Assembly: GCA_000611775.1 (NCBI GenBank)
Contig: KK106982.1
Coordinates: 1,720,643-1,784,642 of the forward strand
Length of the DNA: 64,000 nt
Source: Umbilicaria muhlenbergii
Lineage: Eukaryota; Ascomycota; Lecanoromycetes; Umbilicariales; Umbilicariaceae
Direction: 5' to 3'
The notes beneath the pieces are model-generated. The model saw nothing but the letters and a program-made list of their open reading frames with translations. It was not told where the DNA came from and did no database searches. Below, piece after piece: positions 1 to 44,942 of this stretch (positions are counted from its first letter, which is position 1; each line of letters begins with the position of its first letter). The position numbers and the translations under genes are program-made.

Positions 1-1399
1 GCTATCCAGGGGCAGCCTGTTCCATCAACGCTGGTCTCAATTGGTTCAACCATTCGAGGAAGACAAAATAGTAAAAATTGAAAAAAAGCGTACTTTGGTA
101 ACTTATAAGGATTGCTGGCGCAGTGGTTATGCCTAAAAAAATAGGTATTTCGAAGGATCGCTGACTCAAGTTCTTCAATGAGCGAAATGATTTTTTCGTT
201 CCAAGCCACTCAAATGAGCCACAGGTGCCCCCCACTGAGGCGATCACTCTCCCGTAAAATATAAAAATAATCTTCCAAGCGCACACCTTCCAATTTGTTT
301 CTACCATTTCGCTGCTATTCAACCCTCCATACTGAAATTATTGCACGACCCACTTGAATCATTCGAGTCAAACCCTTTGGGTTGAAACCTGCACTTGCCA
401 ATGAACCACTGTCTCCCAAAAACTGAAGACGAAAGGAGCAATTCTATCATGTGTAACGGTCGATGGGGATGTGGGTATCGATTCTTGGTAATGGACAGAA
501 AAGCGAGATCTTAGTGGCCAGTGGAATAGACCATATAGAGAGCCTCCATCCTTTCAGGCACGCCTGCGTAGCACTTGTTGGCTACAAACTTCATTCTCTT
601 TTGATACGCCTATGACAGCAGCACCTGAATTCTCAGGGACTGACACTGACTACGTCGAACATGAAGAATAGTTAATTGACGTTGAGGGTGCTGGGGCCGG
701 CGATTCAGGCGCTGTTGAAGTTGATGGCGAATCAGAGGTGGTGGGTTGCAGCGAGAACGGGGTGGTGAGAAGGGGGAGTGAGGTAGGGATCTGGTTGTGG
801 GTGGGAGGTGGCCTGGAGGAAGCGCAGGGATAAGTGGTGGGGGGAGTGGAGAGGCCGGCGGAAATTGGTAGTACCGATGGTGGTGATGAGTGCGGGTGCG
901 GGAGGGGAGGGGAGAGGAGGGCGGATGAAAAGGTACTAGGAGTCAGGTGAAAATCTTCATCTGCGTGCTCTTTGCATGAAAATGAGGTATTCGCTGACAA
1001 AATGTAGTCTCTCCAGTATGTTATATTCCTCGCTAAGAACATGAAACGCTTCCGCCACCCTTCTCGCGAGACCCGCCACCCGAGTATCCGACCAGCCCTT
1101 AAAGAAGCAGCAGGCTCTTGCACCATACCTTTGAGTTTGAAGCTCTCTCACAAGACGCCTGGACTACTTTTAGTGAAATTGGCAGAGCTTGTGACGGATT
1201 TGCGTTTCTAGTTACATATGGATACTAGAATCCTCTGACATGGCCGGAATGACTCATTAGGTATCAAGCCACTCTAAACACGTTGGGCTCGACATGTGCC
1301 TGCGACCTGCACACCTTCAATCACATATCTCAATCTGATCTTCTCACTTTCGAGTGTCCTCCAACCTCACGTACCCAGACGTGGACGACCACATCCACC
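1..1399. other. No supported gene (left edge to secreted-protein gene)
   Basis: I find no reading frame here with splice signals or a recognisable product. The stretch at about 700-930 is strongly G-rich on the + strand, and the open frames in it are low-complexity Pro/Ser/Thr translations of that skew. The last 100 bases are CT-rich and look like the 5' leader of the gene starting at 1400. Confidence 0.5.
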
Positions 1400-2498
1400 A
1401 TGTGGGGCGCCTCGTTGCCTCACGCCGCTTTTCTGGCTTGCATTGCCATCACCAGCCTGGCAGGACCAATCATCTCTCCACCAATCACTGCCCGCAATGT
1501 AGATGCTTCCAGCCCTCCTCTGATGCCAGCCGGGCCGTAAGTCAATCTATGCGAAACCCTAATGCGACAGATACACATCAACTGACAACACAGCATATAG
1601 ACAACTAGAAAAACACAGTCTACAAACAACCGAGCAGCCATTCACCCTCTCCCCCCGCGCCCCGGTCAAATACGCCGTCCCTGGAACCAGCGTCTACATA
1701 ATGATCGAGATCGGAGCCCGCGTAGTGACCTCCACCGGCATCATGAGCATCACCAACATGCTCAACGGCGCCTTCCGGCAGATAGCCCGGATGGAAATCG
1801 ATCTCGGCTTGGAAACTCTCATCGCAGGAGGCATGTTCAAATACGGCAACGGCCCACAAATAGTGGTCTGGAATGCCAACAACCACCAAGTGACGATCAT
1901 GACCTTGCAGTTGGCGCTCGAGGGCGTGTTCAGGTATATGCGGGAAAAGTACAATTACGGCGTCGCGGAGTTCGATATCTTTGATGGGGCGAATCAGGTT
2001 GGGAGGGGGCATTTGGTTATGTATATGGAGAAGCGCGATGAGGGTGGTGGTGATGATGATGAGGATGATGATGGCCTCCCGGAAGACGACCTCGCTTTGA
2101 CGACGAACGAACTCGGGCGGCGCGCGGACGAGCCGGCTAGAGTCGATGTGTTTGGTACTAAGAGGTACATACTGATCGGGGTGACGGCACAAGTGGTGGA
2201 CCAGACAAGGATCGAGAATCTGTACCACATGTTGCATTCGGCGTGGATGCAGGCCGACATGCTCGGGCGGGAGCACGGGTGGGCGAACTTGGTTTGGGGT
2301 GGGCTGTTCGTGTGGGGGATCATCCCGAAAGTGAATGTGTGGAATGCGAACAATCATCAGGTGAGCTATGTGGTACTGCGAGACGCGCTTGGGGCGGTCA
2401 TGAAATATATGCAGGATAACAACATCTATGGGGCGGCGGACTTTTCGATTTTTGATGGCGATAACAAGGTTGGCGAGGGTGTTGTTAGTGGGTCTTAG
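1400..2498 (+). CDS. Secreted protein with two tandem 'NNHQ' domains, unrecognised family
   Basis: Exons are 1400-1536 and 1601-2498, giving 344 aa. The ATG at 1400 opens a hydrophobic N-terminus (MWGASLPHAAFLACIAITSL) that reads as a signal peptide, so the product is probably secreted. The 64-bp intron has a GTAAGT donor and a CTGAC branch site. After a short linker come two copies of a domain of about 110 aa, separated by a Gly/Asp/Glu-rich linker at about 2035-2110. Each copy holds VWNANNHQV, then a helix with LxxALxxVxxYM, then YGxAxFxIFDGxxxVGxG. A single-domain relative lies at 44312-44942 with a leader intron in the same place and phase. I do not recognise the family and assign no function; a secreted effector or cell-surface protein is only a guess. 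Third-position composition shifts from C-rich to G-rich near 1990. Confidence 0.85.
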
Positions 2499-2851: not shown

Positions 2852-5323
2852 TCACCCCGACTGCTGACCCGCTTTCTCCAGCACAGCCTCCGACTTAGTC
2901 TCTTTCCCCTTCCTAACCTTGACTCCCTCCTCTTCGATATCCTCTTCTCCTTCCCCTTCGCCTTCGGAATGCTCCTGCTCAATCTCCTCAGTCTCCGTAG
3001 GCGGACCTCTCGGCTCCGAAGCGATAGCCGTCGAAGGTCCACCACCACTCTCAATATCGCCTCCACTCATCTGCCACTCCATAAGCTTACTGAAAGCACC
3101 ATGTGGATTCGAAGAAAGCTCTTTGTATGTGCCTTGCTCGGCGACTGTGCCGTCAGAGGAAAGTACGATGATGCGGTCGGAGCGTTTGATGGTGGAGAGA
3201 CGATGGGCGATGGAGATGGTGGTGTTGTTGCCTCTGAGAAGCGCGGCAAGGGCGGAGTTGACCAGGGTTTCGGATTCGGCGTCGAGGGCGGAGGTGGCTT
3301 CGTCGAGGATCAGGATGTCGGGGTTCTTCACCAGAGCTCTTGCAATGGCAATTCTCTGCTTTTGGCCTCCAGAGAGTTGAGCACCGCGCGCGCCCACGGA
3401 GGTGTCGAGACCATCAGGCTAGGGAAGTTAGCACAAAGAGATGATATGCTATGACTGAGAAAGACTTACGAAGTCACTGATGAAGGAGCAGTTGGCCTTC
3501 CGTGCGGCTGCGATGATCTCTGCTCTGGTCGCCTCAGGTTTGGCGTAGGCGATATTGTCGGCAATAGTGCCTGAGAAAAGAACTGGCTCTTGGGCGACAA
3601 GACCGATCTTCCGTCGTAATTGCTTGACGTTCATTGTGGATATATCAACGCCGTCAATGCGAATGGTGCCCTGCGTCGGGGTGTAGAAGCGAAGCATTAA
3701 CGAAGCAATCGTGGACTTTCCTCCACCAGAAGGTCCTACGACGGCCACGTTCGTACCTTGCGGTATCTCAAAGTCTAAATTGTTGAAGATATTCACGGCG
3801 GGCCTCGTAGGATAGCTGAACGTTACGCCCTCAAATCTGATAGGGCCGCGGGCGGACGTCACTGGCAATCCCACAGTCGGGGATATGGTCGGCTTCCTAT
3901 CTTGGAGCTCAAACAGTCGGCTGGCAGCGCCCACACCTTTCATCAGCTCGGAGTAGAAGCTGGACAAGCCGAAAAGACTCGAGCCAGCGTAGGCGGTGTA
4001 CATCAGAAACGATGACAGATCACCGATACTGATAGCCCCTGACTTCACCATGCCTCCACCAACATACAACAAGGCCAGAATGGTTGCATTACCCATGAGA
4101 CCAGTCGTACTGAAGAAGGTGGCACTGATGAGTGCCTCTTTCTTCCCCAGTTCGAAGATTTTCTTCACCTGCTTGTTGTACCTAGACACCTCCAAGATTT
4201 CTCCAGCAAAGGCTTGACTGGTTCTGACATTCCCCAATCTTTCCTCGGCAATCTTTGTCAAAGTTCCCAGATTCCTCTGGATCCTACGACTCAGGTTTCG
4301 GATAGCTTTACCATAGAAGAATGCACCTATGGCGACAGGCGGAAACATGAGACTGAGAATTCCCGTAAGCTTCAGACTGACGTACGCCATGAGCGCAAAG
4401 CCAGCGCCTCCGCTGACCAACGACCGCATCCCATCCGACAAATTCTGCGTTATACTCTTCCCGACAATGATCGTATCTGAACTCAGGCGGGAAATCAAAT
4501 CACCGACCCTGTTGGCATCGAAGAATTCCGCGTTCTGAACAAACGTTCTTCGGAAGAGTTGGGACCGCAAGCGGGCGACTATGCGCTCCCCGACGATACG
4601 AAGAATGATAATCCGGCCATAGTTTGCAGCAGCTCCCACAGCCAGAACGCCCCCCAGAGCCAAGTAGAACGTATTAAGATCCAGTCCGAAGAGTTGGTCT
4701 CCACTGCCATCGGCCTTTGTAGCAATGTCCAGAATCTTTCCGATCGAGAAGGGTATTGACATGGAAATCGAAGATGATATCAGGAGGAAGACGAATGCGA
4801 AGCCTAGTACTCCTGCTTCCGGCCGCGCAATCTTGATCAACCTCCATATCTCTCCCCAACCGGCCGTTTGTCCCTGAGTCTTCCCATCCTTAGCTAGCCG
4901 TGCGCTCAAGTTCACTTGCGCGGCTTGAGTTGCTTTGGCGGACCTCGCAAACCCTCGTTCCTCCTCTTCATGGTCTGGCTCATCCTCATCATTGAGTGCT
5001 TTGTCCCTGTCCTTCTCTTTAACGGCAGGAGGCTTGGCCTCCAGACGGACCTGTGTAGTCGTGAATCGTCTGCGGATCGACTTGAGTATTGGAGGGGGCG
5101 AGAAGGCAGGGAACTGAGTGTGGCCTGTAACTCTCGGCGGACCCCAGGGGCGCGATTTAGGGAAGCTATGACCGGGCGTCTGAGCACATGGAGATATTGC
5201 GAATGGCAGTTGAATCGCGCTGTGCTGGAGGCCCCGAGTATGCGCTGGGATTGATCGTGGTTGCAGGGCACTGAACGCTGGAGCTCTGCATATTTGCCGC
5301 AACAACGGGGCAGAGCTGCGCAT
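2852..5323 (-). CDS. MDL1: Mitochondrial half-size ABC exporter (Mdl1/Mdl2 type, ABCB family)
   Basis: Exons are 5323-3470 and 3418-2852 (51-bp intron), 806 aa. The frame runs open a little above 5323, but only through a GTG, so I use the first ATG. The Arg/Ser/Ala-rich, acid-poor N-terminus fits a mitochondrial presequence. A six-helix ABC transmembrane domain follows, then one nucleotide-binding domain with Walker [10 protein letters not shown] (about residue 530), signature LSGGQ, Walker [13 protein letters not shown] and the H-loop SIAHRLST. The intron falls exactly between SFISDF and [18 protein letters not shown], and splicing restores the family sequence. Yeast Mdl1 exports peptides from the matrix; the closest named relatives I know are Mdl1/Mdl2 and A. 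fumigatus MDR2, and I cannot separate these. The C-terminal ~60 residues are acidic. It is divergent from CDC37. Confidence 0.92.
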
Positions 5324-5649
5324 GACTTGCTGTACCACCTTCACTGCCCTTCAGTAATCACCGGTCGCGGGAGGTCCTGGGATGAATGATCATATTGCTG
5401 CGTTGTCTATGGTCCAGAGTTGAACAAGCCCTACCTCCAAAATGAACACGCAAAGAGCTTAAGACTACCTACCTTAGATACTCTAGCGAATGCACTTCTA
5501 GAATGACGTAGAACACCACCAGCTTCGATCTATAGGTGCAGGAGAAATCTCTCGGTTCTCTGACCGTGAGCTCTCCAGATCCTACTCGATCACAAGCTCC
5601 AGCTTACACGGTCTGAAAGATACGAATTACGGGTGCAACACCTTTCGCC
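5324..5649. promoter_or_regulatory. Shared upstream region of the ABC exporter and CDC37
   Basis: These 326 bases lie between two divergent start codons, so both promoters must lie here or within the genes. I see no distinct operator-like motif. The assignment rests on gene orientation only. Confidence 0.4.
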
Positions 5650-7309
5650 ATGGTCCTCGATTACAGCAAGTGGGATGCCCTAGAACTCTCCGACGACTCG
5701 GACTTCGAACCCCACCCCAACGTCGATAAACGGTCTTTCATACGCGCCAAACAAAATCAAATCCATCAACAGAGGTACGAAAGACGGCATCAAATAGAGA
5801 CGCTCAAGTATGAGCGCATCATCAACGATGGCCTGCTCCGCCGCATCGACAGCCTCCTTGCAGCACTACGGAGTCATGAAGCCACCGCGAGGGATCCGAA
5901 TGAGTTTCTGATGCAGGCATTGATCGAGTCTGCTGGAGATCCGGATGAAGACCAAGCACCGCCACCACCGGAGGGGGTACATACCAAGACTGGCGAGCAG
6001 CCACGGTACTCACAGATGATGGCTAGCCTTGTCGACCAGGTAAAGAAAGAGGTGGACGAGTCAAAGACAGAGAACTGGCACAAAGCATATGTGAAAGGGA
6101 TAGAAGGGCATAAAAAGAAAGTCACTGAGCTTCAGAAGGAACTTCACCAAAAACTAGCTGAGCTGGAGAGGGAAGAAAGCCGCAAAATCACCAGCGACAG
6201 CATCCACACCGGCTTCAACGTATCCTCCGTATCCAAAGACAAAGACCCCTCCAAGTCCTCTCCAAAAGAAAAGCCCAAACCCAAAGCCGTCGAACTCCTA
6301 AACCCCGGCGCGTCCAGCAAAGGCCAACTCCAGCGCCACGACAGCGCCCAATCCTCCGGCGCCGACGCCGACATCGAAGACGAAGAAGCCGACGGAAAAG
6401 ACGACGACGACGACGACGAGCCCATCGAACCGACCCAACTAGGCCGCGAATTCGCCAAAATCAAAATCGGCGACTACAAGGCCTGCCTCGACTACATCTC
6501 CACGCACCGCGCCGTCGTGTCCGAGCGCGAAACCGACGGCCTCCTCGTCGAAGGCTTCAACGCGCAAATGGACGGCAACGCCGCCTACGCCAAACAATGC
6601 GTGCACCAAGCGCTGCTCCTGCAATACTGCCGCTCCCTGGGTAAAGACGGCGTAGGCCTGTTCTTCAAACGGTACATTTCCCCCTCCCCCTCTAATCCCC
6701 CCCCCCGGTAAATTCTCGATCCCCTGAGACAAGCCCCGACCACTAACCCCCCGGCCTTCCTTCAGCATCACCACCCCCAACCACCAAGCCCGCCAAGTCT
6801 TCCTCGATGACGTCACCTCCACCTACACGCGCATCCAAACCCGCGTCGCCGAACTCCTGCACGAGCGCTCCCTCAAGCCCTCCTCCTCCGATGCCGGCAT
6901 CGAGCAAATCCAACTCCACGCCGTCGACCCGGCCACCCAAATCCACATCAACATCCCCCACCCCGGCAGCGCCGACCCCGCCGAACAGTCCTCGCGCGCG
7001 ATTTTCGACTCCTTCCCACCGGGGTTGCAACGCGCGCTCGAGAGTGGGAAGTTGGAGAGGGTCAATGAGGTACTGGGGAAGATGAGCGTGGAGGAGGCGG
7101 AGGAGGTGGTGGAGAGGTTGGGGGAGGGGGGGATGTTGAGGGTGGAGGGGGGGGTGGTGGATGCGACGACGGAGGAGGGGAGGGGGAGGTTGAGGGAGTT
7201 GGAGAGGGAGGCTATGGAAGGGGGGGATGGGATGGGGGAGGAGGGAGAGGAGGGGGATGGGGAAGAGGGGGATGGAGAAGAGGAGATTGAGGTTGCGGGG
7301 CCGGATTGA
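5650..7309 (+). CDS. CDC37: Hsp90 co-chaperone Cdc37
   Basis: Exons are 5650-6671 and 6766-7309 (94-bp intron), 521 aa. The N-terminus, MVLDYSKWDALELSDDSDFE then HPNVDKRSFIRAKQ, is the canonical kinase-binding start of Cdc37, and ATG 5650 sits in a good context (GCCATGG). A coiled segment follows, then an acidic linker (DDDDDDE near 6400), the central Hsp90-binding domain (PTQLGREFAKIKIGDY onward) and a helical C-terminus ending in an acidic Gly/Glu tail. Cdc37 loads protein kinases onto Hsp90 in the cytosol. The coding strand is C-rich up to about 7020 and then becomes extremely G-rich with no change of frame. It is divergent from the ABC exporter and convergent with clathrin light chain. 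Confidence 0.96.
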
Positions 7310-14266: not shown

Positions 14267-15516
14267 TCTTTCCGTCGGATGTTTTTTGGTAATGCTACTC
14301 CATGTTGATGTGGAGAAGCAGGTGCTGGAGGATTATCGCAACACGGAGTGGAATCAGGGGGTAGTGGGGGTGGAGAGTTACTTCGACCATGCTGGGCATT
14401 GCAAAGCTATGATATCCGATCCGGCCTTTCTTTAGTCTCTCGCCCGGGTTAAGGGCATCACGCGATCAATTCTTGGGACTGTCTGTCCACAGTTTCTGAA
14501 CCCTTTGAAGTAGCTCGCCGTTCAAGCTATTATAGACCACAGTTTATGGGTTGACGGCCTTTCACGTGGACCAACTACAGGGACTTCGATGGCGGGCAAT
14601 TTGCCCGTCAGTAGGCCAGCAGCTCCATCAAACCGAGCTGCAGGAACGAGTGCATCCGCCAGCCAGTATCAGGCCAGCGAGGCATTCGCTTATCTGATTT
14701 CGCCAGGCGTTGGACCAGATTAGCGTAGCGCAGGCGACACAGATGCTACCTTACTGCATGGTAAGGTATGAAATGAAAAGCCTCATGCACCGAGAGAAGA
14801 GCTGCGAGTGGTATTTGGTGCTTATGCCCTTGCTGTTGCCGCCATTGTTGTAGACGACGGAACCTTCCTCGGTGGTCTTATAAAATGAGAGTCCAGTATG
14901 AATGATTGGCAGGGTCAGGTAAAGTAAGAATACCTGTCCGGTAAGTCCTCCTGACTGTACTGCGATGCGGAATGAAAGCGGGCAAGGCGGAATGGAAAAG
15001 TCAATCATGCACGGTGAGATCACGCCCCTCCAAAGGCGCCTCAATTCTTCCGGCTTACCAGTACGTATCTAGTCTACCCCGAGTACACTTGAATCACGAC
15101 TCCTCCATCTCCATGCACCACCGCCCTGCCCCCAGACCCAACACCATGGAATCCATCCTCGCCACCGTCTGATTGGTAATCTTGTTGAGTCTTCATCATC
15201 AATTATCCCCTCATGATTATACAACTGTATCCATATTCAAATTGTCTTTCTTAAGGTCAGGACTACTTCTCCGGCCTTCAATCCCCACGGTCGTTACTTG
15301 CTTCTTAAGACGACATGCGATAACCTCAACTTCACCTTCTCGGCTCCCACGGAATCGCCGTGAGTATCTGTTAAGCCCTGCACTCTCCAGCCTCCATTGG
15401 CGAATACAGATAAACAACCACAAACACGAGACCACTGGGAGACTGACCGCGCCTTTCTAGTCACAGCTGCAACCTACTTCGCCCGACCCCGATTGTTCGC
15501 CTCCCCAACAATCAGG
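14267..15516. other. No supported gene between calmodulin and the reductase
   Basis: I see no convincing coding region here. The part from about 15200 to 15516 is CT-rich and is probably the 5' leader of the reductase; it may hold a leader intron (GTGAGT at about 15361 to CTCCAG at about 15390). Confidence 0.45.
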
Positions 15517-17512
15517 ATGAATCACCGCCGGAACTCGCAACTGCACCAATGCATTCCAGAGACTGCCACATCACATCCACATGACCCAATACCACACGAA
15601 CCAGATCCTGCGTCCATATCCGAATACCGCCCTGCTTCAAATGCATCTCATCCCTCCCCACAGTCATCCGCAAATTCGCTTTCGCTTGTCGAAGACTCCC
15701 CGTTTTCATCCGATGGCGAGTCGCCTGGAACCCCTCGGACAGACCCACAAGTCGATGATGCCTTTGATCAAACGGAAAATGCCGAGACCACAGTCGTCAT
15801 GCCTCTGTCTCCGCGAAAGCGTCGCGCTTCAACAAAGCTCATCTCTCAAGGCCCCAGTGATGTCCGGCGGATACTGAGCAACGCGGAAGGAGAGGGGGGT
15901 ATAAGGCTGATAGAAAAGGTCTGCTGTGGCGGGGGATGCTGTTTTATGAACGCGCTGGAAGAGGACCCGGCTTCGGAAACATTCCTGCCGGTGGTGATAC
16001 CCGACAATGACGCTTTCCGCAGCCTGCAGTTCAAGCTTGGTCCGCTCAGCCTCGATAGCAAACTCACCAACGTCGTTGATCTTCCTCCACAGACCTTGTC
16101 ATTTACTTCACTCGGCAACGAAGTTCAGCCGGCTCCATCGACGGTTCACCAGCACCCACCCACTTTCGTCACCCCACATCCACCTTACGCAGTGTTCTCG
16201 GCAAAGGTGCACCATGCGCGAGAACTGACCAAGCCGGGAGCCGAAAAGAGGACTTACCACTTTGATCTTGATGTTACAGACTATCCCGAAGAGAGCGGTA
16301 ACGTCGACTTTGTTGTTGGTGGTGCCATCGGTGTTTGTGCGCCGAACTCCGAGGAACACGTGACTGATATCTTGGATCTTCTCAATATTCCGAGCTTTGT
16401 CCGGGACAAGCAGGTAATTATGAAAACGGAAAGCGGGCGTTGGCCGACAATATGGGGAGACGAAATGCCCCGAGAACTCGTCACAACTCGCAGGGAGCTC
16501 TTGACGTGGTGTTCGGACGTGCAAAGCTATCCACCCTCGAAACAGCTTCTTCGACTTCTCGCCGAGTACGCCGAAGCTCCCAACGAGAAGAAGATCCTAC
16601 TGTACCTCTCCTCCGCACAAGGCCAAGCCGCCTTTTGCGATCTCCGAACGGGCCCCCATATCACCTTGGCCCAACTCCTAAACGCATTTCCATCGTCCAA
16701 ACCTCCACTTCCGCACCTGCTGTCAACCCTCAACACACTAATGCCCCGTTTCTACTCTCTCTCGCAAGACCCACAGGTCTCCTGCACCCGGGAAGGCGTC
16801 AACTGCCGCCGGCTGATCGAGATCGCCGTCACCGTCCACGAGACACCCAATTGGCGTGGTCCACGAACAGGCGTCGGATCAGGCTACCTTGAGCGCGTTG
16901 CCAAGAAATTACTGGCAGCAGAAAAAGCCGGGATGGATCCTCTCGACCTCGACTTGCGCGTCCCCATGTTCCGCGGTCTGATGGCCAACCCTCTGGCGCG
17001 CGAGTTCGTAACCGACGGCCCCATGCTTCTCGTCGGTGCCGGCGTCGGCGTCGCCCCCTTCCGCGGCTTCGTCCAACGCCGACTCAGATCCGCCAACTGC
17101 GCGAACAAAGTGTGGGTGCTGCAGGGCGTGCGGGATTCACTGTTGGACGAACTGTACAGCGGCGAGTGGGGTGTGCACGAGGACCAGGTCAAGAAAGTGG
17201 TGCAGAGTCGGCGGGGCGAAGGCAGGTATGTGCAGGAGGAAGTGCGGCATCAGGCGGATCTGGTGTGGTTTGTCATCAATGCGCTGGATGGGAGGGTGTT
17301 TGTGTGCGGGAGCAGTAAAGGGATGGGGGAGGGGGTGGAGAAGGCGTTGGTGGATGTGGCGATGTGTAAGGGGAACCTGAACCAGGAGGAGGCGGAGGAG
17401 TTTTGGAGGAATAAGAAGGAGGGGGGGCAGTATATCGCTGTGAGTATCTTCGGTTCCGTGGGTGGTGGTGGGTGAGTGAGTGGTGCTAATGGGTGTTTAG
17501 GAGACTTGGTGA
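15517..17512 (+). CDS. CPR-like FAD/NADPH reductase lacking a flavodoxin domain
   Basis: Exons are 15517-17439 and 17501-17512, 644 aa. The start is the first ATG in the frame; the frame is open above it only through a TTG. Residues 1-130 are Pro/Ser-rich and look disordered. Next comes VCCGGGCCF (Cys 136, 137, 141, 142). From about residue 215 the protein matches the ferredoxin-reductase half of the cytochrome P450 reductase family: an FAD-domain segment (GAIGVCAPNS), RFYSLS at 411-416 that binds FAD, GAGVGVAPFRGF at 507-518 for NADPH, and CGSSKGM at 597. A 61-bp intron near the end adds Glu-Thr-Trp, restoring the terminal aromatic residue typical of CPR proteins. No FMN/flavodoxin domain is present, so the electron acceptor is unclear. 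It may pair with a separate flavodoxin or use the Cys cluster. Confidence 0.82.
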
Positions 17513-29611: not shown

Positions 29612-31973
29612 TCACATGCTGCTTCCGTTAGCTCCTCGATCTCTCTAAAAGACGGACGGTGGAGTGCGAGGTGGACGGGAGGAAAGGAGTCTTACCGTTC
29701 CACAGGGTTCAATCCGAGAAGTCTCATGCCGTTGTTCAATACCTGCCGAGCCGCCTCATACAGCGCCATGCGCGCCTTCTTTAGCTCGGGCTCACTACCG
29801 ACCACCTTGAGCTTATCGTAGCTTGAGCTCAACATATGTGTCATCTTGAACAGATACGAAAGCACCGTCACCGGCTCGAGGGTCTTCAGTGTGTTCTGTA
29901 CAACATCCGGCCATTGCGACAAGGCTCTCACAAGGTCTATCGCTTTGTCTTCTGTGAGAAGCGAGAGATCCGCGGAAGCGATCTCTTGGGGAGATACTCC
30001 GGCTTTACGGGTAATCGAGCAAAGACGAGCATGTGCGTACTGGAGATATGGGCCTGTATCGCCTTCAAAGGATGTCATTCGCTCCAAGGAAAACTCATAA
30101 TTGTTAATGCTAGCAGCAAGTCAGCTTCGACATCGAAAGAATACCCGACGCGTCCATTGGAAAGTCATACCGCTTGCCAGTCATGTCTTGCACCATGACC
30201 GCCGTTATACCCAGGGTGTCTGCTGTCTGCACCGGATCCTCTACTTGCTCATATTTCGTTTGGTTCCGCTGCATGACCTCATGCATCTTTTCTCCAACGT
30301 CCTTCAGGATGTCATCAAGGAACTTCACCGTGCCTCTCCGTGTGCTCATCCCAAGTACCATCCCAAAGTTGACGTGTTGGCATCTCTTCTGGATATCGCC
30401 ATGGCCCATGAGCTCGAGGATCTTGAACAGTTGGGCGAGGTGCAGATCTTGCTGCGATGCTACAACATAGATCATCTGGTCAAACTGGAACTTTTGCCAT
30501 CTTTCCACAGCGGCGCCGATGTCGCGAGTGAGGTATAGCGTTGACCCATCTCGCTTTTTGACAAGCGCCTTGCCCAATTTCTTGGTCTTGGGGTCTTTCG
30601 TCAGATCAACTATGACCGCACCTTCCGATTTCGCCGACACTCCAGTCTTCTCCAGTTGCTCTGCAGCAGCTTCCATGCTCTCCGGCTTGACCTGAGACTC
30701 TCCCGAGTAATAGTCATAACGAATATTGAGGCGCGCATAAGTCTTCTTGTATTTGTCGATACTCAGATCCCTGAACCGTTCCCATAGGGCCAAGGCTTCC
30801 TTGTCGCCTTTTTCCATGCGCTTGAAGTACTTCCGGGCCTTCTCATTGGTACTCTTTGACTCCAAATCCGTAATTTGCTGCTCCAAGTCACTGGTATCTT
30901 GCCCACTGGCCTTCGCTTCTTGCAGCTCCTTTTTCTTCTCGGCAATCTCGTCTTCTTCTGGCTTCGAGACCTTGTTTATCTCAACATAGATATCGTAGAG
31001 ATGCCCGATAGGATCCATTTTAAGCTTCTCCTCACTTCCATACATCGCGAAGGCGTTTGCAAGTAGACCGAATTGACGGCCCCAGTCTCCCAAGTAGTTC
31101 ATCCGAATGACTTCCCATCCGGCCGCCTCGTAAACGTTTGCCAGAAACCCTCCAATGATTGTGCTTCGCAAATGCCCTGCATGAAAGGGTTTCGCTATAT
31201 TCGGCGAGGAGAATTCTATAATGATGCGTTTTTTACCTTTCGATGGATCCCACGGGTCCTTCAATCCCAGTCTCGCATCGGTACCGTATCCGGCCTTCTC
31301 TTTTAGTATTGAAGGCAGAACGAACTTCGTGAGCGGCGCAGCTTTGAACCAGAATTGCACGGACGTGCCGGCCACAACGGGTTTTTCGATAAGGTCTGAT
31401 TCAGGGAACTACAGAAGAGTAGAGATTAGTACATAGGAGTCGACCGGTTATGATGAAGCTTCATACCTTCTCCACCAACTCGGCTGCTAGGTCGTTGGGC
31501 TTCTTTCCTTTGATCCGTAGAGCTGGCACTGGAAGCACCAGATCCCCCTTGTCCAGCGTCTGGGTCCATTGAAGCCTTGGATAGATTTCAGTGGCATCTA
31601 AACCGGTCAAAGAAGCAAGCTCCTTCGAAATATGGGCTCGGTATACATCCACTGGATTTACAGCCGTGAATGAGGCCTGCACATTTGCCGTGCTATTGCT
31701 CGTCGCCAGTGATCCTGATGCGTCTGCCGATGCGTCATTACTGACTGCTGGATATGTAGGGGCTTTCTCTTTGTTTTCCAGCTGTAGACTCTTAAGTTCA
31801 TCCATCTTGACTGTGCTGAAGACGCGAACGAATCTTGAATCGCTGCGGAATGGGGAGGTTGCGGGTTGTTCCTTAAAATAGAAGAATCTGAATTTATGCG
31901 AGGTATTCGCGAAGCCAGAAGTTCTCAACAAGATATCTCTAGCACTTGAAACATGGAGTAAGCGGTGGCGCAT
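29612..31973 (-). CDS. RRS1: Arginyl-tRNA synthetase, probably cytosolic and mitochondrial forms
   Basis: Exons are 31973-31467, 31408-30171, 30109-29696 and 29618-29612. From the ATG at 31805 the protein is 665 aa; from 31973 it is 721 aa with an Arg/Phe-rich leader (MRHRLLHVSSARDILLRTSG) like a mitochondrial presequence. Motifs: N-terminal additional domain, class I HIGH as HAGH within FSSPNIAKPFHAGHLRS, GMSTRRGTVKFLDDIL in the KMSKS position, and the anticodon-binding region SFEGDTGPYLQYAHARL. The last exon is 7 bases and ends the protein VERM, the usual ending in this family; without that intron it would stop at VER (29692). The frame is also open to an ATG at 32126. It charges tRNA-Arg. 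Yeast uses two genes for this, whereas many other fungi make both forms from one. Confidence 0.93.
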
Positions 31974-34130: not shown

Positions 34131-35891
34131 ATGGCGATCCTAACAGAAATCGAAGCCGGTAAGTTATATGCATCTCTGAGGCTCCTCACGACTTCAAATT
34201 GGCGTAACAAACCCAAACAAGCAATTGACTGAAGTAAGTAGGCCTGAGGCGCCTTCGCAAGAGCATGCAGACCAAGGCGAGGAAGGTTGCCGTTTACGGC
34301 AAGAAGAAGCAGAAGGACTTTGCAGACGAGTTTGCAAGGTTGTCGCTGTCGCCGGCGAGGAAAGGTATGTGAGGCCCCCACAAACATTGTATACGTGACT
34401 TATGAGATCTTAGACCGAACACCATTGGCTCCCCTCTCCGCCAATGTCGCCGTCTCGTCCGAGGAACCCCCTGCCGCCACCAAAGCTGCTGGTACGAGTT
34501 GAAAACAACCCTTAAACTAGAGCGTTGGGGATCCTCCTACTAATCTATGTAACTCTACAGTGCCTGAAGCAGATACGCCAAGAGAGTCACGAGGGGCCCC
34601 CGGAGTACAAGCAGCGCGGCCGCCACCACTGCCATCTATTGATGACGAGGCCACGCTAAAGTACCTGCAGCCTCTCCTCACTTTAAAATACGTAGAGCGA
34701 CGCGTCTGCAACTTCCAAGCCTTCGCCGACCTCGTCGGCCTAGCCTGGGAGAAGATCGGCGACGGGTCTTATGGAGACGTCTTCAGACTAACAGTAGGTG
34801 GCAACATACGAATCATCAAGTGCATTCCATTACGACGGCAGCGAGGACCAGGCTCGAAATCCAAGTTCACTCCCGTCAAGGAGGCAGCGGACGAGATTGC
34901 TATAGCGACTAGAATGCAACCGATCGAGGGGTACGTCGACTTCTGTGCTGCTCAGGTGGTGTATGGTCCCTATCCAAGCCAGTGCGTGGAGGCGTGGAAC
35001 CGATTCAAGGAACGAGAGGAAGAGTGCGGGACACCCGACCCCAATGAATCAGACTCTTACGTTCCGGACCAACTGTGGGTCTTAATGCAGATGAAGGATG
35101 CTGGGATGGCGCTTGACAGATATTGCGACTCTGCTACCCGCGAGTCATCAGGACTGCCGGTGAAGTTGAATATGTGGCAAACGTTCGATATATTCTGGGA
35201 TGTAGCGAAAGCCGTGGTCCGCGGAGAGGAAGTCGCACACTTCGAGCACCGAGATCTTCATCTAGGAAATATTTGCATCCAACATCTTGACGAAGCAACT
35301 GCATCTGGACCCCAAAAGTTCAATCTCATCCAATACGGCGGCACGAAGAAATTGGGACGGACGAGCATCAAAGTCACCATTATCGATTACACATTATCAA
35401 GAGTCGATATGGACGATGGGAGCGTTCGCTATAATCCGATGAAAGACCTAACCCTCTTCAACCAGTACCGCGAAGGGCAAGACATCCAATACAAAGTGTA
35501 CCCTATCATGAAAGAGACGGTATTAGGCCGCGGGCGCCGCAAAGACGAGAAGAAATGGTCAGAGTACCACCCGCAGACAAACGTTCTCTGGTTATGGCAC
35601 CTGTTGGAGAAGTTGCTGGAAGCCACAGATTCAATAGTCCCTCTCGATCAAGACCCCATTCTCGCCGGCGACGCATCTGACGAACATGTTACGCTTACTC
35701 GCCTGTGCGAAATGAGAGATAGCCTGCACGATGTACAGAAGCGTCTAGCACCTGGGCCCAGAGTCTCTGGACCTCCGATAGATTCGGCGGTGGATCTTCT
35801 GTCGTACGCGCTGGATAGCGAATGGCTCTCACCCGAGGATGTGGTGGATGGAAGTGAAGACGAGAAATCGGGCGAGGAAGTAGATGATTGA
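34131..35891 (+). CDS. Haspin-type protein kinase
   Basis: Exons are 34131-34158, 34242-34364, 34414-34491 and 34561-35891, 519 aa. The basic N-terminus (MQTKARKVAVYGKKKQKDF) resembles the start of fungal haspins and may target the nucleus. The kinase domain has a glycine loop GDGSYGDVF at about residue 143, a catalytic loop HRDLHLGN at 306-313, and IIDYTLSR at 350-357, where DYT replaces the usual DFG. That replacement is diagnostic of haspin. A short acidic tail ends the protein. Haspin phosphorylates histone H3 Thr3 and helps place the chromosomal passenger complex at centromeres in mitosis. The first exon is only 28 bases, and I chose ATG 34131 because it gives a continuous frame through MAILTEIEAGLRRLRKSMQ. 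Confidence 0.93.
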
Positions 35892-36143
35892 GTAGTTATT
35901 TGGACGTTGTAGGTTGTTTGCACAGTCTTGGCGTTTTTGCTTTGTTAGCGATACCCGCGCCTCGCCGCGCCTACGACGTGATGACTCCGTCCATCTGACC
36001 CAGAACATCACCTATACAGTTTGCCACTCTCCACTCAACTCCCCCAGACCTTCTCATAAACACAAGGGCTCTCACCATGCCTTGAAACCCCTCAAACCCA
36101 CAACCCAGCAACAAGGATACCCACCCCCCACCTCCACCACAAC

Positions 36144-37527
36144 ATGCATCGCCTCCGCCGGGCCCTCCGCCCCCCCTCCCCCACCTACACGCCTCTCCCC
36201 CCTTCCTCCCCGCCCACCCTATCCGCTTCTCCCCGACCCATATCCCCCTTCACATACCTCACCTTCCTCCTCCTCGGCACATCCATGCTCTGGGCCTGGA
36301 ACGCCTTCCTCGCCTCAACCGCCTACTTCCTCTCGCGCCTCTCCTCCCACCCCACCCTCCTCACAAACTTCCAACCCTCGCTAATCTCCATCTCGACACT
36401 CACAAACCTCCTCTCGATGCTCCTCCTCACCTCCCTCCACCGCTCCGCCAACTACCCGTTCCGCATCCTCGCCGGCCTGGGGCTCACAATCGCCGCCTTC
36501 ACGCTGCTGGCCGTCTCGACGAGCGTGTGGCGGGACGTGCCCGCGGGGCTGTATTTTGGGTTTCTGATGGCCGTGGTGTTTGTGGCGAGTTTGGCGACGG
36601 GGCTGTGCCAGAATGGCGTGTTTGCGTTCGTGGCCGGGTTTGGGCGGGGGGAGTATACGCAGGCGATTATGACGGGGCAGGCGGTGGCGGGGGTGTTGCC
36701 TTGTGTGGCGCAGATCGGGGCGGTGTTGGCGGTTGCGGAGGGGGAGGAAGAGGGGCGAGGGGGGAGTGGGAGGGCGGCGGNNNNNNNNNNNNNNNNNNNN
36801 NNNNNNNNNNGCGTTTGTGTGGCTTTTGCGGAGGGGGGAGCGGGGGGAGGGGAAGATTGGGGTGGAGCGTCGGAGGGAGAGTGGGGATGGGGATGGGCGT
36901 GGCGATGGGGATGGACGTGGGGATGGAGATGGTGGGGAGGTGGAGGTGGAAGTGGAAGAGGAGGAGCGGGAATGTCGGGGGGAGAGGAAGGCGGTGGGCA
37001 TGTGGACGCTGTTCAAGAAACTGCGATGGCTGGCTTCGGCGGTGTTTTTGTGTTTCGCGGTCACGATGCTCTTCCCGGTGTTCACACAGGAGATCCTAAG
37101 CGTGAGGCCCGCGGACGATGCGCCGCGGTTGTTGCGGCCGACGTGCTTCATCCCGCTGGCTTTTCTACTCTGGAACACGGGCGATTTGACAGGACGCCTG
37201 CTCACGCTTATTCCGAAGCTTTCTTTGGTGCGGTATCCGCGGGTACTGTTCGCTATCTCGGTTGCCAGACTCGGATTCATCCCGCTGTACCTTCTCTGCA
37301 ATATTCGGGGACGGGGCGCGGTCGTTGGTAGTGATTTCTTTTACCTGGTCGTTGTGCAATTCTTGTTCGGGACTACGAATGGTTACTTGGGCTCGTCGTG
37401 CATGATGGGAGCGGCGGAGTGGGTGGACGTTGATGAGAGGGAGGCTGCGGGCGGCTTTATGGGGCTAATGCTTGTGGGGGGCTTGACGACAGGGAGTTTG
37501 CTAAGTTTTCTGGCTGCGGGCCTTTGA
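36144..37527 (+). CDS. Equilibrative nucleoside transporter (ENT/Fun26 family), broken by an assembly gap
   Basis: Single reading direction from ATG 36144 to a stop at 37527, with 30 N at 36781-36810. Before the gap there are about six hydrophobic helices, starting FTYLTFLLLGTSMLWAWNAF, the ENT signature of helix 1, and including SLATGLCQNGVFAFVAGFG. After the gap come a charged loop with Gly/Asp/Arg and Glu/Val repeats, then about five helices (ASAVFLCFAVTMLFPVF, FIPLAFLLWNTGDLTGRLLT, and others) ending FLAAGL. The frames on the two sides differ, so the N run does not have the true length. The yeast relative Fun26 moves nucleosides across the vacuolar membrane. No intron was needed. Confidence 0.88.
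36781..36810. other. Assembly gap (30 N)
   Basis: Lies in a G-rich purine tract of the transporter gene; the flanking frames disagree, so the gap length is not reliable. Confidence 0.99.
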
Positions 37528-42700: not shown

Positions 42701-44311
42701 CGTCTTTGCATCTGTATGTAGCACACAAAACAAAAATTCAAATCTGTGGAGAGTATAGAACACTGTCACAAAGTAGTATATAGGCTTTGGTATGCTAACA
42801 TACCTTATGGAGCCGAATACCATGGCGTGCAGAGCAGCAGCCTACCGTTAGGAAGCGCTCTATGCTACACGGAACCAATCTGGGCTTGAAACGCCTGCCC
42901 TTGGGATAGCTGGCTGGTTCTGAATGGCAGTGAGCGGTGCGCCGTAGCATAGTGGTGTTTCTATAGGAGGAAGTGTGTGGCGCAAGAACGCAAACGATAG
43001 CAAAGACCTGCTGTTCATGCGAGCGATAAGTCAAGACCGGAGGGTTGCAAGCCAAGACGCAATGTAGCACATAGAACAGGTATGCTGCTGCCGTAGCCGC
43101 TGTCAAGATTGGATTGAACCCGTAAGGGGGGCGAAGGATGGTACTGGTACAGTCAACATACTTGACAGTGAAATACTCATGTGAGTTTACAGCGTAAACA
43201 GCCAAAGGAGATATCAACTCATGAGCAGGGAATGTAAAAGTGGGCTTAAACGATGGTCCAGGCCGGGTGGCTTGGACAGCAAAGGGGTGAACGGGCAATG
43301 GCAGTAAGGGAAGAGAAGGAACGCAGTACTTGAAAACACCATCGAAAACAGAGAAATATGGAAGACTGTGTTTTGGCTGGAACCCTGAAATAAGTGTCGG
43401 CAGGTCATCAAAGGTTTTGGGACGGATGTGATTTGCTTGCGCTTATTGGCTAGCTCGCTCCTAAAAAACCCTTTCATGATCTCCGGGTTGAGATATGATA
43501 CTTGTCTTCCCTCAACCAACGTGGTGTAGGTCTCGGTCGTCGTTACGTTGCCGCAAAGTCGATATTTGCGGCTAATCCCAAGCGTGGTTAGTGCCGAGCC
43601 AATGCGCTTGCCCAGGCACGGTATGCCCTGCGCTGCGGCTGAGGAGGCCTCCAACTTCGAATCGCAACCATGACGACGTTCCCAACCGAGTACCGCATGG
43701 CGGCTCGCGGGCCTGTCTGAACAGACCGCACGCGACACAGATCTCCTCGGGGCTGTGTGAACACGAGGGGTACTAAGACCGACCCTCTATCGGAACATGG
43801 CTCCTTATAAGCCAGATATGATCTTATTTTCGAGCTCCGGGACATCCATCGGTTTCAAGACATTCCGCTATCACCTACGGTGGGTCACTTTTATAACACC
43901 TATTTAGCTTTCAGTGTTGCAGCTATGCAATGCGGACTCCAGAAGCATAGCCCCCGCGCTCCCTACCTTTTCCCGCAGTCAAATGCGGGCATCGACTAAG
44001 CAGACACGCTCAATGCTTTAGCAAGCCATCCCCCCTTTACGAAGTCAATAGAGGAAGAAGTCAAACCTTTTTCCACGATTACCAGCTGATATCTACTTGT
44101 GTGTTCACAATGGACATCGGAAATTCACTTGTAGACTCTTGAAACGGCCAAAAGGCATATATATGCGAGTTCCTCGACGCAGCAGGTTTTGGACGCGACT
44201 TCCGCTATCCGGCGGACGTTATACATTGCAATTAGGACCCCGTGGGAGCATGAGCTTTTCTCTTCGGCTTCTGCGAATGCATGCCTATCCTTTATACTGT
44301 GCTCAACCAAG
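39732..44311. other. Gene-poor stretch of about 4.6 kb
   Basis: No gene can be supported with confidence. On the - strand, two overlapping open frames at 43214-43738 and 42795-43298 have a protein-like look (one contains SRKYRLCGNVTTTETYTTLV). A splice such as TTTCAG at about 43393 would switch between them, but I cannot build a complete model or name a family. The rest shows no repeats or coding signal that I can see. Confidence 0.4.
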
Positions 44312-44942
44312 ATGCAAGGATTCAGTCTGTCTTCTCCGGTGTTGTTGTTATTGTCTGTTGCCCCAAGCTTGGCATTTCCAACTTTCAAAGAACCAGCTTC
44401 ATTAGCTCCTCGAGCTCGATTCTGCGCCAACTCTCCTCACACAGTAGCTGGAACGTAAGCGGGGAACTTTTCCTTCGCAATTTGAATCGTATTCGAAAGG
44501 GCTGGTTTGCTGACAACACATGAACAGCAAACTCAACCACCGCAGTCCGTTGGCCAACACTTTACAGCCCCGAAAAAGCACCGAAGCCGTCGTAGTCTGG
44601 TGCGCTACAGGCACCGAGACATACATACTTCTTACTATGGCATTCGAGACCGGCGGGAATGCTGTCCAGACCCTACTCAATGCAGCATACAATGAAATAC
44701 TGTTAGGCGTTGCCATCCATGGCGATGGAGTGGTTCCGGGTGGAATATTCCACAAGATTGGGCCCGGTAATGTTGCGCTACGTACAATGAATTCTAATAA
44801 CCACCAACTTACGTATGGCGTTCTCGGAGCCGCGATATCGGCACTGCAAGCTTACATGAGCCACTTCTCCTATGGAGGCGCATCCTTCACCATCAACGAC
44901 GGGATGATTGAGGTAGCAAAAGGTGTCATTGGTATGGAGTAG
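44312..44942 (+). CDS. Secreted protein with one 'NNHQ' domain, unrecognised family
   Basis: Exons are 44312-44454 and 44528-44942, giving 185 aa. The start MQGFSLSSPVLLLLSVAPSL is a clear signal-peptide sequence. The intron has a GTAAGC donor, a GCTGAC branch site and phase 2, the same place and phase as in the two-domain relative at 1400. The mature part has one domain: TYILLTMAFETGGNAVQTLL, then MNSNNHQLTYGVLGAAISAL, then YMSHFSYGGASFTINDG and a final VAKGVIG. It matches both repeats of the 1400 gene across the whole domain. No catalytic residues or known family are recognised. It sits alone in a gene-poor region, as fungal effector candidates often do; that context is only suggestive. Confidence 0.82.

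Follow-up and report, generated by a model that had tools for sequence, protein, structure and literature searches.

The two genes described here lie in a 64,000-nucleotide stretch of contig KK106982.1 of the lichen fungus Umbilicaria muhlenbergii (positions 1,720,643 to 1,784,642, referred to below as the window). They belong to a family of predicted secreted proteins with at least 170 loci in this one genome, whose members share a domain and, for the most part, a leader intron, and whose upstream regions are enriched in a Ste12-type site. Gene 1 (1400 to 2498) carries the domain twice and gene 2 (44312 to 44942) carries it once, in both cases behind a secretory leader. The family is read, with a probability placed slightly above even, as a large and old set of secreted, Ste12-controlled putative binding proteins or toxins at the interface of the fungus with its alga or with other microbes.

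Structure of the two window genes

When spliced, gene 1 encodes 344 amino acids (aa) and gene 2 encodes 185 aa. Both leader introns start with GTAAG and are in phase 2, cutting the codon past its second base, after codon 45 in gene 1 and codon 47 in gene 2. In both genes, an alternative in-frame acceptor is located 18 nucleotides (nt) downstream; it would give introns of 82 and 91 nt, respectively, and the automated gene model favoured it. The domain is about 115 aa long. Domains A and B of gene 1 share 44% identity over 109 aa (E 4e-31), and the gene 2 domain is 32-33% identical to each of them (E 1e-13 and 2e-11). The motifs NNHQ[VL][ST], YM, YGxAxF, and DG were found in all three copies, the third of these as YGVAEF in domain A, YGAADF in domain B, and YGGASF in gene 2. 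Signal peptides were predicted with a script based on hydropathy and cleavage sites only. A preliminary description of the window had proposed a two-domain and a one-domain member with shared motifs, a signal peptide in each, and a leader intron of the same place and phase, and these points are borne out.

Size and distribution of the family

The genome (34,788,950 bases in seven contigs) was searched using gene 2, domain A of gene 1, and a third member as queries, together with the pattern N-x-N-N-H-Q. The pattern gave 130 matches versus 1 for the reversed control, which excludes chance for the motif. Matches to the family were found on all seven contigs; 179 of the matches listed (178 after merging) correspond to 174 gene-level loci, of which 170 have a protein-search match, so that 170 is a lower bound for the family. 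Four loci were found by the pattern only, one of them (L061) being confirmed by the profile and another (L067) lacking the domain. The loci are scattered, with single genes making up 111 of the 138 groups; 36 gaps were shorter than 10 kb versus 8.3 expected at random, and no excess of loci was seen at contig ends (7 versus 7.0 expected).

A gene-level sample of 85 stretches was examined by profile search, and 97 domain pieces, 83 of them near full length, were assigned to 89 gene-level groups. Most groups are intact; four are broken by a frameshift or stop (L036, L039, L040, and L061), and a few others are incomplete or interrupted by an insert or possible intron. Identity between paralogs in the sample does not exceed 64%, with a median of 47% to the nearest paralog (83 domains). 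Among the 89 groups, two whole domains were present in gene 1 only, so that the earlier suggestion of growth by domain duplication holds for that gene; the family itself grew mainly by gene duplication.

Some members depart from the common architecture. One family domain (G000:C3:891470-891874) lies inside an open frame of 1,097 aa, which may be a fusion or a chance long frame. Two loci, L055 (C1:5863627-5864058) and L020 (C1:8014618-8015046), contain a low-complexity, Ser-, Ala-, and Gly-rich insert within the domain, before the NNHQ loop, and a similar insert is found in the relatives P0030 and P0042. In two distant family genes, a stretch of about 220 bp before the domain (L010:1325-1542 and L027:3305-3530) is 80% alike, and shorter pieces of it occur in L053, L069, and L071; the two-exon model failed or was odd in genes with a stretch of this type. 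The stretch may represent an element insertion or an ancient common linker. No tandem repeats were found when the inserted stretch of L010 was searched for them.

Leader, intron phase, and cysteine pair

Gene models for the 83 near-full domain pieces were obtained with a script that picked the best signal peptide and intron, the phase not being used. A model was obtained for 60 pieces, corresponding to 59 genes, and the intron is in phase 2 in 58 of these; among the 23 pieces without a model are short stretches and genes carrying inserts. The same leader and intron phase in many relatives support the secreted fungal family that had been proposed from the two window genes.

The leader consensus is roughly R-x-x-x-C-x-N-A-P-x-T-V-A-G, divided from a following T. 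Of 50 leaders that have a Cys close to the junction, 41 carry an Arg four residues ahead of it (most commonly as Pro-Arg, 21 leaders). All 61 domains examined have x-Arg within the nine residues that open the domain region (Pro-Arg in 33). A Kex2-type protease could cleave at such Arg sites. KR or RR directly after the intron was rejected as a general Kex2-type rule, being present in 15 of 58 genes only.

The leader Cys and a Cys in the first strand of the domain occur together. Among 58 genes, 46 have both, 4 the leader Cys only, none the domain Cys only, and 8 neither (Fisher p 2.6e-7); gene 2 has both and gene 1 neither. The same table for relatives from other sources is 6/0/2/8 (p 0.007), the two exceptions being P0021, whose Cys was read as placed elsewhere, and P0111, which was read as being without a true leader. 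Because the leader Cys is absent only where the domain Cys is absent too, a disulfide between them is proposed, and the counts suggest this as the simplest reading. The best tree has 8 leader-Cys changes, few of them on well-supported branches, and a phylogeny-aware test was underpowered (1 pair on supported branches and 8 on all branches). Three short relatives (P0078, P0103, and P0104) have signal peptide and domain in one frame without the CANAP leader, and are perhaps an intronless subfamily.

Taxonomic range

A profile of 77 domains, in a search of the kind that the preliminary description had recommended, matched 78 proteins among 5.8 billion. All 12 relatives bearing an organism name are from Umbilicariales: Hypocenomyce scalaris (4), Lasallia pustulata (5), and Umbilicaria vellea (3). 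With a second profile, 45 proteins were matched at E<=10, the weakest at 1.5e-10; scoring covered just the 7,998 candidates sharing most words, so that more distant relatives could have escaped detection. One family copy shares 80% identity with a Lasallia protein (56% for the next copy), and other relatives reach 93%. Set against the at most 64% between sampled paralogs, this indicates that the lineages split before the species did and were then kept.

In keeping with the view that no named family has this motif, neither window protein matched any Pfam family at E<=10, and at E<=1 the 77 members gave just scattered weak hits to 17 families, each in 1-3 members. A phmmer search of PDB with gene 2 gave no match, and a PDB search by profile gave nothing credible (best E 0.29). 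No description of the family or motif was found in the searches made of the open-licence PMC literature. Features of candidate effectors were found in both window proteins, namely small size (185 and 344 aa), no known domain, restriction to one lineage, and a hydropathy-based signal peptide.

Predicted fold and comparison with known systems

The fold prediction likewise called for was performed with AlphaFold, and two models, one of them of gene 2, are predicted beta-(alpha-beta2)2 sandwiches. Their best PDB neighbours are Zt-KP4 (8acx), ginkbilobin-2, DUF26, and lectin Y3, with a moderate match, and the predicted order of elements in both models agrees with the topology of the GNK2/KP4 fold group as outlined in PMC10462633. 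Nothing credible was found in a viral structure library, and the LDL lectin was not among the structural matches listed. Near-invariant positions include the D of a GD loop following helix 1, most of the N-x-N-N-H-Q-x-T loop (strand 4 to helix 2), and a DG turn joining the last two strands; N-x-N-N-H-Q-x-[TS] is kept in 68 of 83 domains. Judged from the topology of the chain, all three elements would lie at one end of the sandwich.

The family is regarded as undescribed and its fold class as already known. That class is widespread, and PMC10462633 describes massive expansions as rather rare. KP4 proteins are disulfide-rich, with many conserved cysteines. By comparison, the 83 family domains have 0-3 Cys each, and KP4 (PF09044) was matched neither by the window proteins (E<=10) nor by any of the 77 members (E<=1); the family thus differs from KP4 and KP4-like effectors in Cys richness, in its conserved motif, and in its massive expansion within one genome. 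Ginkbilobin-2 and DUF26 proteins, including the tandem ectodomains of PDLPs, have a C-X8-C-X2-C motif that is present in none of the 83 domains. DUF26 (PF01657) is described as specific to land plants, and its tandem form as apparently plant-specific (PMC6368629). Y3 of Coprinus comatus and LDL are mushroom lectins with known glycans and no sequence link to the family, whose sugar binding is putative. In scale, secretion, a shared fold at low sequence identity, and lineage restriction, the family resembles expanded effector families such as the RALPH effectors of powdery mildew, for which 262 are reported in one genome (PMC10462633). It differs from them in its predicted fold, its occurrence in a lichen mutualist, its shared promoter site, and having no known virulence role.

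A shared Ste12-type promoter site

The 400 bp upstream of family genes were compared with background windows by 7-mer counts, ATGs being taken from the script gene models and the background including coding DNA. The top 7-mer was TGAAACA, found in 15 of 33 genes versus 34 of 441 windows (p 7.6e-9 over 6,136 words). Upstream of 58 genes, with each base counted once, TGAAAC occurs 62 times in 24.8 kb (2.50 per kb) versus 71 times in 152 kb (0.47 per kb), about a fivefold enrichment (p 1.6e-19), with most copies placed 100-350 bp ahead of the ATG. Of 2,075 six-mers it has the top rank. The flanking sequence is not conserved, so that sharing of the site is not simply recent copying. TGAAAC[AG] is present in the last 300 bp of 22 of 37 genes; for background windows the count is 38 of 475, and for upstream regions of control open reading frames it is 2 of 42. 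In a held-out set, which excludes 15 genes without upstream DNA and 2 sharing it, TGAAAC was found in 11 of 14 independent genes versus 21.5% expected (p 8.6e-6); the downstream control in a looser held-out tally gave 5 of 20, and three further genes all had the site. Another word, AGTCGC, is also over-represented upstream of family genes (26 versus 8.7 expected).

TGAAACA is given as the Ste12 site and classical pheromone response element in PMC10789715, and one Ste12-family match was found in the genome. In Cytospora, Ste12 under a PMK1-type kinase is reported to regulate putative effector genes, with binding to a TGAAACA promoter by yeast one-hybrid (PMC10789715). Ste12 has its place downstream of MAP kinases of this class. 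Loss of the PMK1-type kinase UMP1 in U. muhlenbergii is reported to block formation of the symbiotic complex, and UMP1 also to govern pseudohyphal growth (PMC10620189). The words Ste12, effector, and secreted do not occur in that paper, and a link from UMP1 through Ste12 to the family is accordingly our inference.

Proposed role and alternatives

In the favoured reading, the signal peptide would lead the protein into the secretory pathway, and a propeptide would probably be removed at the conserved x-Arg, frequently Pro-Arg, immediately ahead of the leader Cys. The mature protein is predicted to fold as a small sandwich of the ginkbilobin-2, KP4, and Y3 kind, with the putative disulfide tying the leader to the first strand. 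The N-x-N-N-H-Q-x-T loop, GD loop, and DG turn would form the likely ligand site, with the remainder varying among paralogs, and gene 1 would be a tandem two-domain version. Judging from the site enrichment, a Ste12-type factor under UMP1 probably activates the family together. The most likely role would be extracellular, in the contact zone, through glycan binding to, or inhibition of, algal partners, competing fungi, and thallus microbes.

Two expression reports bear on this role. A KP4-like gene of Cladonia grayi is listed with a value of 150, taken here as a coculture ratio (PMC6652019), and in another lichen fungus most genus- or species-specific small secreted proteins are stated to rise early in resynthesis (PMC9232553). 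Together with the UMP1 phenotype, the two reports speak for toxins or binding proteins that would act outside the cell on contact with a partner. The possible effector role raised in the preliminary description is backed by the lineage restriction, the predicted killer-toxin or lectin fold, and the promoter site; because the organism is a lichen fungus and not a pathogen, the partner would be the alga or lichen microbes.

The same promoter site would also suit proteins of mating, self-recognition, or hyphal growth, induced by Ste12 in the pheromone response or pseudohyphal growth and acting between fungal cells. The site being the classical pheromone response element (PMC10789715), the control of pseudohyphal growth by UMP1 (PMC10620189), and the many diverged paralogs, which suit recognition between strains, all speak for such a role. 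It is nevertheless considered unlikely, as it does not by itself call for about 170 diverged extracellular proteins, and named relatives confined to a single lichen order agree equally well, or better, with an outward role specific to the lineage. Antimicrobial or killer-type proteins directed against fungi and bacteria of the thallus, and not the alga, are another improbable explanation: neither an immunity gene nor a toxin activity is known in this system and KP4 is not matched, against which stand the nearest folds, Zt-KP4 and the antifungal ginkbilobin-2, and the hypothesis that Fusarium KP4-like proteins aid fungal antagonism (PMC9506348).

That the family is a neutral by-product of gene duplication, or a mobile-element passenger without an important role, is very improbable. 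Broken copies such as L036, L040, and L061 exist and clustering is mild, as such an origin would allow, but the majority of the 89 groups are intact, lineages are kept across species (80% to Lasallia and up to 93% to other relatives), and paralogs of no more than 64% identity still have the promoter site and intron in common.

Features and neighbours in the window

Coordinates are given in Table 1. The neighbours of the family genes are ordinary core genes, with a Pfam match in 6 of 10 frames scanned, and the family genes sit among them. No Rfam match was found within the window at the gathering cut-off. The GC content of the window is 52%, versus a published genome mean of 47.12% (PMC3999499).

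Table 1. Family genes, associated sites, and neighbouring genes in the window
Feature	Position	Strand	Basis
Ste12-type site TGAAACG, 358 bp upstream of gene 1 start	1042..1048	+	motif scan
Gene 1 exon 1: signal peptide and leader (leader after signal peptide without Cys)	1400..1536	+	splice model
Gene 1 leader intron, phase 2; alternative acceptor 1618	1537..1600	+	splice model
Gene 1 exon 2: two domains and stop codon	1601..2498	+	splice model
Gene 1 domain A	1647..2012	+	profile match
Gene 1 inter-domain linker with acidic run	2013..2114	+	translation and profile limits
Gene 1 domain B	2115..2486	+	profile match
ABC transporter	3449-5347	-	Pfam
Cdc37	5617-6708	+	Pfam
FAD/NAD-binding reductase	15364-17472	+	Pfam
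Class I (R) tRNA synthetase	30113-31408	-	Pfam
Haspin-like kinase	34521-35888	+	Pfam
Nucleoside transporter	36060-37328	+	Pfam
Ste12-type site TGAAACG, 172 bp upstream of gene 2 start	44140..44146	+	motif scan
Gene 2 exon 1: signal peptide and CANSPHTVAG leader; leader Cys codon 44423-44425	44312..44454	+	splice model
Gene 2 leader intron, phase 2; alternative acceptor 44545	44455..44527	+	splice model
Gene 2 exon 2: one domain and stop codon	44528..44942	+	splice model; AlphaFold model m1485547fe66f
Gene 2 domain	44556..44930	+	profile match
Gene 2 domain Cys codon (W-C, first short strand); proposed disulfide partner of leader Cys	44601..44603	+	model and Cys counts
Gene 2 N-x-N-N-H-Q-x-T loop, strand 4 to helix 2	44790..44813	+	conservation and model

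Significance

Recognition between lichen partners is described as still largely unknown (PMC12712428). A 2022 comparison of six lichen fungi, including U. muhlenbergii, gives 107-207 small secreted proteins per species and argues that many may not be required (PMC9232553). The published U. muhlenbergii assembly has 34,812,353 bp in seven scaffolds, with 8,294 genes and 1,488 predicted secretory genes (PMC3999499); a single family of at least 170 loci is about 2% of the predicted genes and alters the small-secreted-protein picture of PMC9232553. Since U. muhlenbergii is transformable and a UMP1 deletion mutant already exists, the regulon prediction is directly testable. More tentatively, and at somewhat less than an even chance, the family may be a lichen-specific arsenal of Umbilicariales, in which about 170 disulfide-tethered proteins of killer-toxin or lectin fold, forming one UMP1-Ste12 regulon, would recognise, restrain, or sort algal and microbial partners. 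If true, a mutualist would here have its equivalent of the largest effector families found in plant pathogens, one that escaped notice because its proteins match no known family.
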